Shown here: piece by piece, positions 1-60,100 of the stretch | How positions within the stretch are numbered: position 1 is the stretch's first letter | Layout of the letters: each line of letters opens with the position of its first letter | Source: Arenicola marina | Lineage: Eukaryota; Annelida; Polychaeta; Arenicolidae | Length of the DNA stretch: 64,000 nt | Assembly (NCBI GenBank): GCA_964019135.1 | Contig: OZ025261.1 | Span: forward strand, 30,550,029-30,614,028 | Direction: 5' to 3' | The notes under the pieces: model-generated | What the model was told of the DNA's origin: nothing | Seen by the model: the letters and a program-made list of their open reading frames with translations, nothing else | Databases searched by the model: none | Position numbers and translations under genes: made by a program

Positions 1-860
1 CTGTCCCTGCTCTGTCAGGGACAGTGCTAAGGCCCCTCCCCAACTCCTCCGCCCCCCCCCCCCTCCCCCACTTCCCACCCAGCGCCCTCGGCTCCCACCC
101 CGCCCAAACATGCCTCCCTTGCACTCACACAAGCAGCGACTTCAATGCCATCTTTTGATGAAACCTCGCGACTTCCAGCGCACAAACACAATATTTGACA
201 ACAGTGATACAACACAGAGAGCGTCTTCACGTTCTCTCTTCTCCACCCCTGTGACCCCTCCGACCACCCCCCCCCCCCCCCCCCTCGGCACCTCCCGCCT
301 CTCATACCCACCACTCCCCAGCAACAACATCCAGACCACCACCACTGGCCACAGGTCGTACAGATACAGGGTGACATAGAGAGACAGTGAGAGAGAAAAT
401 CTCCTTTCTACTTTCAACATGACCCTTTATGACGTGTCATTTACTTTTAGGATAAACAGTAATTGACGGCGATATAGTCCTTGTGTCGGATCCGGAGATC
501 CAGCATGATGTATAGCGGAGGGTAAGGCTGCAGGTTCAAAACTTATATGTGTGGGAATGTTAATACTTTTTTGTGAATTCCTCGCAGCAAAGTCAGCCCG
601 ATAACTAAATTTGATGTTTTCTTCATGAAACAAACTATTACAATTCCCAACTTCCAACTACATACTTCATCTTAAAGGGACACTTACAAAAGACATACAT
701 ACAGGAAAAAACCAAGTTGCCACAACATTTGTCGTGACGTAGCAACCAGGCACTCCGCCCACCGGATTGACTATTCCCGGGTGACGTTTTCTAGGGAAAA
801 CAGTCACGTTGCCGACCAAGGACATTTTGAGAATGGCGGCTGACTACTGACGCTATAGGA
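1..860. other. Left-edge non-coding DNA
   Basis: This stretch has poly(C) runs near 50-65 and 268-285, and otherwise unremarkable sequence. The open frames here are Pro/Gly-rich products of the homopolymer tracts. I see no exon. Confidence 0.5.
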
Positions 861-866
861 TTCAAA

Positions 867-872
867 TTTATT
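867..872 (-). terminator. Poly(A) signal AATAAA for the peptide gene
   Basis: TTTATT on the plus strand reads AATAAA on the minus strand, about 190 nt past the TGA at 1061. That is a normal 3' UTR length. Confidence 0.4.
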
Positions 873-1060
873 ACATTGCTTCTCAAAAAATAACTGCATA
901 TATTTCATGTCCTCAGGCCGTATACTCTGCTCATATAGCCCCCTCATTTTCTCTTTTTTTGTCACGTTTTGCTTAAGTCTTTCCTACGCTTTCCTACTAT
1001 TTCCGCGCGGCCATCATTAACTACTAAACACCGAAAGATACTGGAGTGGCCGCACCCGCT

Positions 1061-1173
1061 TCATGCGGTCTGGAGTACCCTGAATTCCCTGGTCATATAA
1101 GCAGCAAACTCTTCAAACACCTTCTTATCCAGAGACCGATCGCCCGGCAGGGGGCTCCACTGCAGCTCATCAT
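1061..1173 (-). CDS. Peptide gene terminal coding exon
   Basis: Two bases complete the split Asp codon, then 36 codons and a stop. The reading is acidic and helical (DELQWSPLPGDRSLDKK, then the VFEEF... tail) with ordinary codon use. The longest open frame here is a different one, which yields only a tryptophan- and cysteine-mixed nonsense product. This frame is chosen because it matches the phase of exon 1. Confidence 0.55.
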
Positions 1174-1402
1174 CTTCGCAAGGAACCAGCCAGGTCTATG
1201 TGTCATAATGACACACAAGGAACCAGCCAGTATCATATAATTATCAGTTGTAATTGTGCCTTTAACGTTGCAAAAAGATGGTTGTGTGATAGATATGTAA
1301 TGCATTCTTACCCTTGAGGGCCTCCATCTGCACCCAGCTGGCCTGGGAGGTGCAGACGGCGCTCAGCAGCAGGATCAACGCCGCCGCCGCCACGCACCGC
1401 AT
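1061..1402 (-). CDS. Small secreted peptide precursor, 67 aa, two coding exons (unrecognised family)
   Basis: Coding exon 1 is 1402-1312 and coding exon 2 is 1173-1061, joined across a 138-nt intron (donor AAGG|gtaag, acceptor gcgaag|AT). Both sides are phase 1, so the split codon reads GAT (Asp). Residues 1-21 are a textbook signal peptide: MRCV, then an Ala/Leu/Ile core, then AVCTSQA with likely cleavage before SWVQ. The mature part of about 46 residues begins SWVQMEALKDDELQW, has a Lys-Lys pair at 47-48 that could be a processing site, and ends with VFEEFAAYMTREFRVLQTA, which would form an amphipathic helix. The only Cys outside the start (C3) is C17 in the signal peptide. TGA is at 1061-1063, and a minus-strand AATAAA lies at 867-872. 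A T-rich acceptor (gtttacag) abuts the ATG, so a non-coding 5' exon is likely upstream. I recognise no family. The role (hormone, antimicrobial or other secreted peptide) is open. The weak point is the poor pyrimidine tract of the internal acceptor. Confidence 0.6.
1312..1402 (-). CDS. Peptide gene coding exon 1 (signal peptide)
   Basis: 30 codons plus one base, from ATG at 1400-1402 to donor gtaag at 1311-1307. It is strongly GC-rich (GCG/CTG codons), unlike the surrounding DNA. Without splicing the frame meets a stop inside the intron after a few residues, so the donor is needed to make a sensible product. Confidence 0.68.
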
Positions 1403-44328: not shown

Positions 44329-44600
44329 TCACTCGTAGATCATGACTTCGCAGAGGACAGCGCTGAAGAGCCTGGACCACCGGTTGGGTACCCCCCAGGC
44401 CTCGATGTACACGTAACGGCCTTCCATAGGCCGCATGCATTGCACGTGCAGCTTGGGCCGGAAGATGGCGTCGTTGAGGCGCGAGATGAAGCCGCACATG
44501 TTGGAGGGCAAGTCGATCTGGTCCTTGCCTCCCTTGTTGTCCACGTACACCGCCAGCTTGTCCAGGTTGTACATGTAGTCCTTGTAGTTGGTACGGGGGT
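44329..44600 (-). CDS. Lectin gene exon H: F-type lectin domain, second half, and stop
   Basis: Acceptor ttccag|AC gives Asp, then PRTNYKDYMYNLDKLAVYVD, SNMCGFISRLNDAIF, KLHVQCMRPMEGRYVYIE, LFSAVLCEVMIYE and TGA (44329-44331). The Cys-x(n)-Cys-x-x-P-M-x-GRYV ... LCEV ending is diagnostic of F-type lectins. The adjacent Cys-Cys and R-x-D...R of fucose binders are absent. A possible minus-strand poly(A) variant ATTAAA is at 43832-43837. Confidence 0.9.
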
Positions 44601-57105: not shown

Positions 57106-60100
57106 CTGAAGGTAAGGCTAATAATTATCGTCATGTTTGGCATAATATCCACTGCCTGAATAAAAAATGCATATTTATATGCAATGAGGTGTTGGTGTTC
57201 TAGGCGGACACGGACACTGAATTTGTTTTAATGAAATGTTGGTATTTTAGGCCATCTTGTAAACATGAAGGCTAAACTGGGGCAATAAGAAATCTCCTGG
57301 AAATGGGGTTGGATAACTATGGTGACGGGTGGCCGGGATGTTGATTCACCAATTATTAAACTATAGTTATAGTCAACAAGCAGCATAGATATACATTTTA
57401 CTGTGCATGATAAACATGGCATATTGCCCTGCCGGATCAAGAGCGAGGGCGGGAGAGGCCTCGAGCAGAGAATCCCACTCCCACCTCATCTCCAAATCTG
57501 AAGTACATGTAGTTATGTCCAAATTACAGATTTCTGCCCTCACTAAATGAAGAATGTCTTTCTCCATAATCAACCGCCACACGAGCATACTTTAGCCGTC
57601 ATGTTTTTATCATGCCTTTGATAGATGTGATTGCACCTGATACTTTTCTTACGGAGCAGCAATCCCGCCGGGGTTCCGGTGACATACGGGTCCTACGTAC
57701 CGCGAGGTTAACGCGCCAGTGCGGACAAAACACACACCGAGAAGCTCATCGTTATCTGTTTTATACTCCCGACTAGTTAGCCGCCCTCTTGGTGCCAGAA
57801 CACGCCCGCTACGAGCGTGCAGCCTCCTCCTGCCCCCTCCCACAATCCCACGCCCCCCCCCCCTTCCACCCCTACGTACCTCCTGCCCATTATTATTCCC
57901 ACAGGAATTGCAACCACCTTCTCCGCGAGGTGTCGCTACCGCATAGTGACCCTGGCAATAAATCCCACGTCCAACAGTCGAACCCTAACCACTAATTCAT
58001 ACCTTGCGTAGTACTTTCACCACCCGCGCCTTCACTCGTTTTACCCCCTGTCCCCGCAACAAGTCAACCATATGACGTTATACTCTTTCGCACTCCTGCC
58101 TTCCTCCCGTTTTTTAGGGTTTTTTTTTTTAGTTGCCAGGTAATTTGCCTCGCAGCATGCCTGACAGCAAAACATGCGCAGCACGTTCAAAACCCTTCCT
58201 CAGTGATAATCCAGGCGGCGAAATCTATCGCTCAGCAGATGTAAACATCGATAATTATTGGATATATTTCCTGTTCCCTCGCCACCCCCCGCTTAGTTTA
58301 TTATGGGCCGGCTGGTGTGTGCTAGGAGGGGCGGGGGGGGGGGGGCATGGATTACCACGGCGGGTGGTTTCCGCTATAGGTTTTCTCCTTTTTTTTCTTC
58401 GAATATTCCACTATAAGCTATGCCGCGAAGTGGGCAGTGTTGGACAGATACCTGTATCATAAATGGACGAATCTTGCTATTAATTTTGTTTTCACGGGGC
58501 TATATGTAGGCTTCCGCTTTCTCACCCACGAACATACTTGTTGTTTGTTAGTTGTATACGCTTTTAATGCTGTCCAGGCTTTGTATGTAAATTAACTAAG
58601 AGACAACGACGGTCATTCAGCAGAATATAACTTTCCATTCCCCGCGCCACTGATATAGCTTGTATCAATGAATACTTTGACATTAAACACGTCAGACCAG
58701 CACATAAACACATGTGTTCCCACATTTGTTTCTGTCTACGTACCCACTCATAGCAGATTCACCTTTAATTTTATTGCTAAAGAGCAGGTCTAGATCGACA
58801 AATCCGAAAGGCTGATACAGGAAAAAATTCTCAAAATGGCATTCGCAGTTCACCGGGGCGAAGCCCCCCCCCCCCCCCCCCCAACTCGCCCGTCACTCAA
58901 ACCGGCTTCAGCGAACTACACTCCGGCCTGCTTGCTTAACGGTAACAGATATTGGCACTTGCATGTGGGGCTAATTTCCAGCAGTTCGCACGGTTGAAGA
59001 ACCTCAAAGGTTAAGCGAGTAATGCCATCCCTTAGTTAGCCGCTTGCAGTTCCGCTCCCTGAGTGCAGCACACCGCTACACATCTGAGCCCATCCAGCCC
59101 TGAGCCATAAACCACGTGGTTGGCTCCTTCCGCCCCGGAGGGAGGTGTTAGTTATTCATTCGGCCTTTGGAGGGAGGTGTTAGTAATTCATTCGGCGTTT
59201 GCTTGTTTTACTTGTACAATCCACCTGTGCAAAAATAACTTACGGATTTACGATGCGTTTCTCATGAAATAAGCTTGTGGGTCGTTTTTTCTAAAAACAA
59301 ACGTAACGATAGATCCCTGTCAAAGAATCCATCCAGACGGTTAAAAAAAAATTTAAAGTCCAACCTGTAACTTTTCAACTACCGATTTCTCCACTTACAG
59401 GGGCTATTTTTTTACCCTGCGACACACGCCACCGCTTGCTTCACAACAGGCGCAGAGAATATAAAAAACAAAACAGTCGTGAAATCGATTCCAAATGTTT
59501 ACGGTAACAGAGATTCGGATAAATATGTCGCTAACCTTTCCCGGGAGGACAAACAGCTTTCAGCAATCACCATTCGTCAAGTTTTCAACAGCATGAATGC
59601 TACTGTTGCCACACACCTTTTCGACATCACAACTTCCTGCGGAGTTCGACTTTTGTTTAATGTTGATCTATACCTACACCATTTTTATACAATATTGTGT
59701 TTCTTATTTACAATATTTCGGTCGGCCATCTTGCATGCATGTCCCGCAAAACGTCGTTTTCTTTGTGTGTCAAATATAAAGATATAAAGGGAAAGAAACA
59801 CGAAGATACTTCTCCACTCGACGCACGAATGTAAGCATGTAAGGGATCTCTTCAACCACAAATAGGCCACTTAAAAAAATTAAATGCTGCGCTTGCCAGA
59901 TATCTATCCATATTTCTCGTTGTAGATGTCACCCGATTGTGCTATCGAACCTCTGACCAGAACAGACCTGCGATAGCGGCTGCACCAGTAATAATAGCAG
60001 CGCAGTAAATGCGTCAAGGTCACCACCTGCTTGTCACAATGCAGACAGAGACCGAAAACAAATAGCAGTGTAGAATCTTTTGAAGCGCCGTGTACACGAG

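Follow-up and report, generated by a model that had tools for sequence, protein, structure and literature searches.

Annelid neuropeptide and antimicrobial precursors are the nearest described counterparts of the gene considered here. It shares with them a signal peptide, a short mature part and a KK pair before the C-terminal segment, but differs in having no amidation signal, repeated peptides, paired cysteines or family match. Non-autonomous DNA transposons (MITEs) provide a second comparison. Like them, an interspersed element that overlaps the gene is about 749 bp long, exists in many copies and is associated with 9-bp duplications; it differs in that its terminal repeats are short and imperfect. 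The third comparison is with transposon exonisation and intronic polyadenylation. In the gene structure proposed originally, a transposon supplies coding sequence, stop codon and AATAAA, as in such cases, whereas the best model presented here splices the element out. The accessible portions of the literature on exonisation, MITEs and intronic polyadenylation contain nothing on this gene.

The locus lies in a stretch of 64,000 nucleotides of the Arenicola marina genome (contig OZ025261.1), here called the window. It probably contains a real small secreted-protein gene, but this gene most likely does not itself encode the peptide that had been proposed for it.

Reading frame and splice sites

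The original prediction described two exons encoding a secreted peptide, and its frame is present as claimed. Exons 1402–1312 and 1173–1061 on the minus strand join in phase to give 67 residues (MRCVAAAALILLLSAVCTSQASWVQMEALKDDELQWSPLPGDRSLDKKVFEEFAAYMTREFRVLQTA, then a stop), closed by a TGA at 1063–1061 and followed by a minus-strand AATAAA at 872, the whole spanning about 0.53 kb (Table 1). The signal-peptide-like N terminus is likewise visible on inspection, with a best 10-residue hydropathy mean of 3.11; it was called by eye and hydropathy. The dibasic KK occupies codons 47 and 48 and is present in both the 67-residue product and the 74-residue alternative described below.

Splice sites were scored with an approximate matrix, and ranks are relative to GT or AG sites. 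The exon 1 donor at 1311 (AGG/GTAAGA) is strong (top 0.3% of GT sites). The acceptor of exon 2 (1173) is mediocre to weak (top 23% of AG sites). An alternative exon 2 acceptor at 1195 was rejected on inspection: joined to exon 1, it leads to a stop after eight codons. Among the GT dinucleotides in native exon 2 and at its edge, the best is GTGTTT at 1120, which forms a phase-0 candidate donor (1121/1120; 1.74 bits, top 4.1% of GT sites) at the edge of a repeat. The strong acceptor-like stretch at the ATG suggests a 5′ untranslated exon further upstream.

Intron 1 contains a 15-bp direct repeat around a palindrome, TGTGTCATAATGACACA, and a similar palindrome occurs at 1794–1808. The repeat and palindrome together could be a transposon footprint.

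Table 1 Features of the locus, in window coordinates
Feature	Position	Strand	Remarks
Acceptor-like stretch TGTTTGTATTGTTTACAG	1403–1420	−	Immediately upstream of ATG; 4.2 bits, top 1.2% of AG sites
Coding exon 1 (codons 1–30 plus one base; 91 nt)	1312–1402	−	Signal peptide MRCVAAAALILLLSAVCTSQA, then start of mature part, SWVQMEALK
15-bp direct repeat CAAGGAACCAGCCAG	1179–1193 and 1216–1230		Intron 1; flanks palindrome, just upstream of exon 2 acceptor
Exon 2 as first proposed	1173–1061	−	113 nt
Native part of exon 2, codons 31–48, DDELQWSPLPGDRSLDKK	1121–1173	−	Ends at candidate donor AAG/GTGTTT
C-terminal 19 codons of the original prediction, VFEEFAAYMTREFRVLQTA, plus TGA	1061–1120	−	Antisense to element; most likely intron 2
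AATAAA of the original prediction	867–872	−	Inside element; complement TTTATT common to family model
5′ half of MITE-like interspersed element of about 749 bp, second half missing	769–1120	+	Terminus about 772
CGGATTGAC, 9 bases preceding 5′ end of element	763–771		Partner duplicate on other side presumably lost
Candidate coding exon 3, phase 0, PYPPLYIMLDLRIRHKDYIAVNYCLS plus TAA	447–527	−	Best-scoring of 358 phase-0 frames from AG to stop, leftward

An interspersed element at the 3′ end

Searching the species' own genome (867 Mb, 762 contigs) with positions 1001–1500 returned at least 39 other places, all of which match only within 1004–1119; a search with 991–1130 again returned at least 39. 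From 29 fetched genomic copies, four of which (L006, L007, L008 and L019) represent one duplicated region and some of which are partial, we defined a unit length of about 749 bp. A profile of these copies has a single match in the window at E 0.01 (nhmmer), at 769–1120 (270.4 bits, model positions 10–373 of 769).

Both canonical ends (TAGTCCC...GGGGCTA) are found in 14 of the 29 fetched copies. Exact 9-bp target duplications flank 11 of these 14; of the remaining three, two seem to be 10 bp long and the third is imperfect. The candidate terminal inverted repeats, compared by eye, are TAGTCCC and TAGCCCC, about 7 bases with one mismatch. We presume from the 9-bp target duplications that the element belongs to the Mutator-like type. 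The same duplications rule out a Helitron, an identity at which apparent TC...CTAA ends and a hairpin had first hinted. One fetched copy (L030) is interrupted from 1635 onward by a run of N, and its apparent half length therefore reflects a gap or masked stretch, not a short subfamily.

About half of the fetched copies are near-identical to each other. The window copy has 71–74% identity over 363–387 bp to the five copies with which it was compared, and by this divergence it appears to be old. It lies in plus orientation and has lost its second half and second target duplicate; an exact duplicate of CGGATTGAC occurs nowhere else in the window. Because these two parts of the element are missing, DNA was probably lost at the exon edge.

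The repeat edge at 1120 coincides with codon 49, immediately after KK, give or take about 10 bases, which leaves room for a few native residues beyond KK. Since the edge falls at this codon, the 19-residue helix, its stop codon and the AATAAA are antisense transposon sequence. The proposed structure of two coding exons ending in a 19-codon tail is therefore not upheld: tail, stop and poly(A) signal lie in a truncated transposon copy.

Coding signal along the frame

We scored codons with a log-odds model trained on 2,035 codons of kinase domains from the same genome. Thirty loci were fetched for this set and 16 tried; 7 were dropped for stops in a straight reading and 9 were used, with a wide spread of GC3 among the training genes (0.37 to 0.95). 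A second training set consisted of 397 codons of a neighbouring discoidin gene. Additionally, exact dinucleotide shuffles were made of each stretch, and the stop-free ones were counted.

The coding signal ends where the repeat begins. Exon 1 has a GC3 of 30/30 and scores +20.4 bits, a value reached by 27 of 34,251 stop-free 30-codon windows, exon 1 included. Three non-overlapping places rank above it in the list; all belong to coding parts of the discoidin gene, at 44.6 and 56.4–57.0 kb, and serve as positive controls for the codon model. Codons 31–48 score +10.8 bits (113 of 56,465 windows as good) and codons 49–67 score −3.1 bits (13,058 of 54,101). Shuffles matched the observed score in 0 of 3,275 cases for exon 1 (codons 1–30), 16 of 2,254 for codons 32–48 and 315 of 1,500 for codons 49–67. 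With the second training set, windows as good numbered 15 of 28,967, 423 of 50,539 and 22,015 of 46,300 for the same three stretches, which are ranked alike under both sets. On the codon scores, the dinucleotide shuffles and the second training set, codons 1–48 look coding and codons 49–67 do not.

This bears directly on the proposed release of a hormone or defence peptide, VFEEFAAYM..., by cleavage at KK. Its codons, 49–67, lack a coding signal and fall within the repeat, and the proposal is not supported.

A candidate third exon

We scanned about 9 kb to the left for phase-0 frames of at least six codons running from an AG to a stop (n = 358); leftward frames closed by a donor instead of a stop were covered by fixed-length windows only. 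The best-scoring frame, at 447–527, is single-copy and non-repetitive and lies some 240 bases past the element. It scores +8.1 bits, and its two alternative frames were rejected at −15.9 and −17.7 bits. One of 2,337 stop-free dinucleotide shuffles did as well, for a frame that was itself picked as the best of 358. Its acceptor is mediocre (top 15% of AG sites). Leftward, the nearest further AATAAA lies at −786, which would make the 3′ untranslated region about 1.2 kb long; an ATTAAA lies at −656.

Control frames provide a measure of chance. Seven frames, in three places, score as high in about 110 kb of control strand. At that rate, roughly 0.04–0.07 such frames would be expected in the 0.6–1.1 kb closest to exon 2, and about 0.6 over the full 9 kb. 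Across the window, 34 of 2,100 AG sites followed by 26 open codons reach the exon 3 score; the 20 best documented in the list comprise 18 frames of the discoidin gene, exon 1 and the opposite strand of exon 1. Support is weaker with the second training set, under which 1,174 of 34,386 windows reach the score. Taken by itself, the assignment of 527–447 to the gene is tentative and falls a little short of an even call.

Joined as 1402–1312, 1173–1121 and 527–447, the three exons would encode a 74-residue precursor: a signal peptide to about A21, the acidic segment SWVQMEALKDDELQWSPLPGDRSLD, a KK pair placed precisely where exons 2 and 3 meet, and PYPPLYIMLDLRIRHKDYIAVNYCLS as a C-terminal peptide of 26 residues.

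We favour, with moderate confidence, the explanation that a real single-copy gene with native codons 1–48 has had a transposon-derived C terminus attributed to it and is spliced from three exons. Codons 1–48 would be native coding sequence in two exons. The frame would run from exon 2 into the truncated MITE-like transposon at the start of intron 2, and the transposon, read antisense, would supply the 19 codons, the stop and the AATAAA. Splicing from 1121 to 527 would remove the element, and exon 3 would complete the precursor, which is predicted to be secreted and cleaved at KK. What remains of the secreted-peptide gene first described is probably a short, unclassified, single-copy secreted-protein gene, read from the minus strand and with coding support over codons 1–48; the last third of the 67-residue frame is transposon. 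If this is right, the locus contributes a further unclassified gene for a short secreted protein in an annelid, and it illustrates a pitfall: a transposon lying in an intron may round off what looks like a convincing two-exon peptide gene, stop and poly(A) signal included. The check that revealed this, a comparison of the candidate exon with the remainder of the genome, is simple and general.

Alternative explanations

The gene could instead be longer, with codons 1–48 continuing into exons elsewhere to the left and 527–447 a chance frame. The support for exon 3 is moderate, and gaps of several kilobases between coding stretches do occur in the neighbouring discoidin gene, but no better phase-0 terminal frame was found in about 9 kb to the left. 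We consider a longer gene unlikely.

A second alternative is that the transposon has been exonised. The MITE would then contribute part of the last exon, the stop and the poly(A) signal, and cleavage at KK would free a transposon-born helical 19-mer, either as the sole product or from a minor intronic-polyadenylation isoform. The frame is open across the repeat edge and in phase, and an AATAAA is present. The 19-mer has an Eisenberg moment of 0.494, reached by 695 of 53,755 stop-free 19-mers in the window. This amphipathicity is somewhat unusual and in favour of the original prediction, but no mechanism is apparent that would have selected it. Single-sequence AlphaFold modelling of the exon 2 frame with its transposon part (44 amino acids, including 7 that precede the acceptor) predicts a helix for the 19-mer, with a mean pLDDT of 72.5. 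However, the exon 3 peptide is predicted to be helical as well (31 amino acids modelled, 5 of them preceding the acceptor; mean pLDDT 80.6). Because both candidate C termini are modelled in this way, predicted helicity does not choose between them. Against exonisation, too, are the lack of a coding signal in codons 49–67 and the availability of a phase-0 donor and a better-scoring exon 3. The stop and the complement of AATAAA are common to the repeat family and hence need no selection. Exonisation thus appears distinctly unlikely. There is a slightly smaller chance that the 67-residue form is real, in which case an antisense MITE fragment would now form the final coding segment of a secreted precursor and provide a helical peptide after the dibasic site, together with the stop and poly(A) signal. 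Such a product would be a transposon-derived bioactive peptide of an annelid, perhaps made alongside the 74-residue form as an alternative isoform.

It is improbable that the gene is a broken relic in which the element and an accompanying deletion took part of exon 2 or a splice site. The missing second half and second target duplicate of the element would fit such damage, but the frame and codon bias of codons 1–48 are intact despite the age suggested by the element's divergence.

A chance frame in a GC-rich patch is very improbable, since the observed scores are reached seldom or not at all when the exons are dinucleotide-shuffled, even though the combination of signal peptide and donor is by itself not above chance (the window has 2; 20 Markov shuffles gave 1.1 ± 1.3, or about one expected per window) and the opposite strand of exon 1 likewise scores +17.3 bits.

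Product and family matches

No other place in the species' own genome resembles either product (next best E values, 1.12 and 4.57). The claim that the product matches no known family agrees with our searches of Pfam, NCBIfam and PDB sequences, none of which produced a significant match. In Pfam the best E values were 0.051 for the 67-residue and 0.085 for the 74-residue product, neither reaching the cut-off; NCBIfam, whose models are for bacteria and archaea, gave no match; and among PDB sequences the best E value was 1.5 for the 67-residue product, with none for the 74-mer. The window contains no tRNA and no Rfam family at the gathering threshold, with three matches below it at 700–1700.

Both products lack an amidation signal (Gly followed by basic residues at a peptide end). 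After the signal peptide there are no cysteines in the 67-residue form and one in the 74-residue form; neither has two or more. The hallmark of NPY/NPF peptides is a C-terminal RxRF/Y-amide. A resemblance of the exon 3 peptide to this family was rejected for want of RxRF/Y, which neither product has at its end (VLQTA in the 67-residue form, NYCLS in the 74-residue form). Most likely, the gene encodes an ordinary secreted peptide released by predicted prohormone-type cleavage; nothing in the data singles out a hormone or a defence role.

Neighbouring gene and other genome observations

Upstream on the same strand, at 57124–44329 (minus), Pfam PF00754 (F5/8-type-C, discoidin) matches four exon fragments, two of them above the cut-off. 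The coding stretches between 57.1 and 44.3 kb appear to form a single multi-exon gene that carries at least two F5/8-type-C domains. Its last stretch, lectin-like by eye only and without a Pfam match, ends in CEVMIYE followed by TGA. We read this TGA, at 44331–44329 and right after the last domain, as the stop that the gene uses. Because the discoidin gene ends with its own TGA, exon 1 is not a late exon continuing it, a possibility that we had considered. A signal-peptide-like coding stretch at L014:7099 (minus strand), PRAGLAPLLILSTLTGLVAASGSAITSQVE, has no Pfam match and is possibly the first exon of the discoidin gene.

In nine small contigs (C443, C465, C504, C330, C652, C609, C497, C684 and C232), kinase-domain matches are interrupted by TAG and/or TAA, never by TGA. 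The pattern resembles that of contaminant or associate DNA whose stop codons have been reassigned, as happens in ciliates. Contig C3, mostly at 45–57 Mb, carries many clustered kinase-like matches with open frames of about 250–380 codons that are apparently intronless.

The mitochondrial contig has 15,942 bases, and its recognized genes are all on one strand, in an order that marks the host as an annelid. With protein genes named by eye and three tRNA calls (one for S, one for I and one for V) discounted as spurious, the order is COX1-N-COX2-D-Y-G-COX3-Q-ND6-CYTB-W-ATP6-R-H-ND5-F-E-P-T-ND4L-ND4-C-M-V-L-A-S-L-ND1-I-K-ND3-S-ND2. This is the mitochondrial gene order of many annelids.
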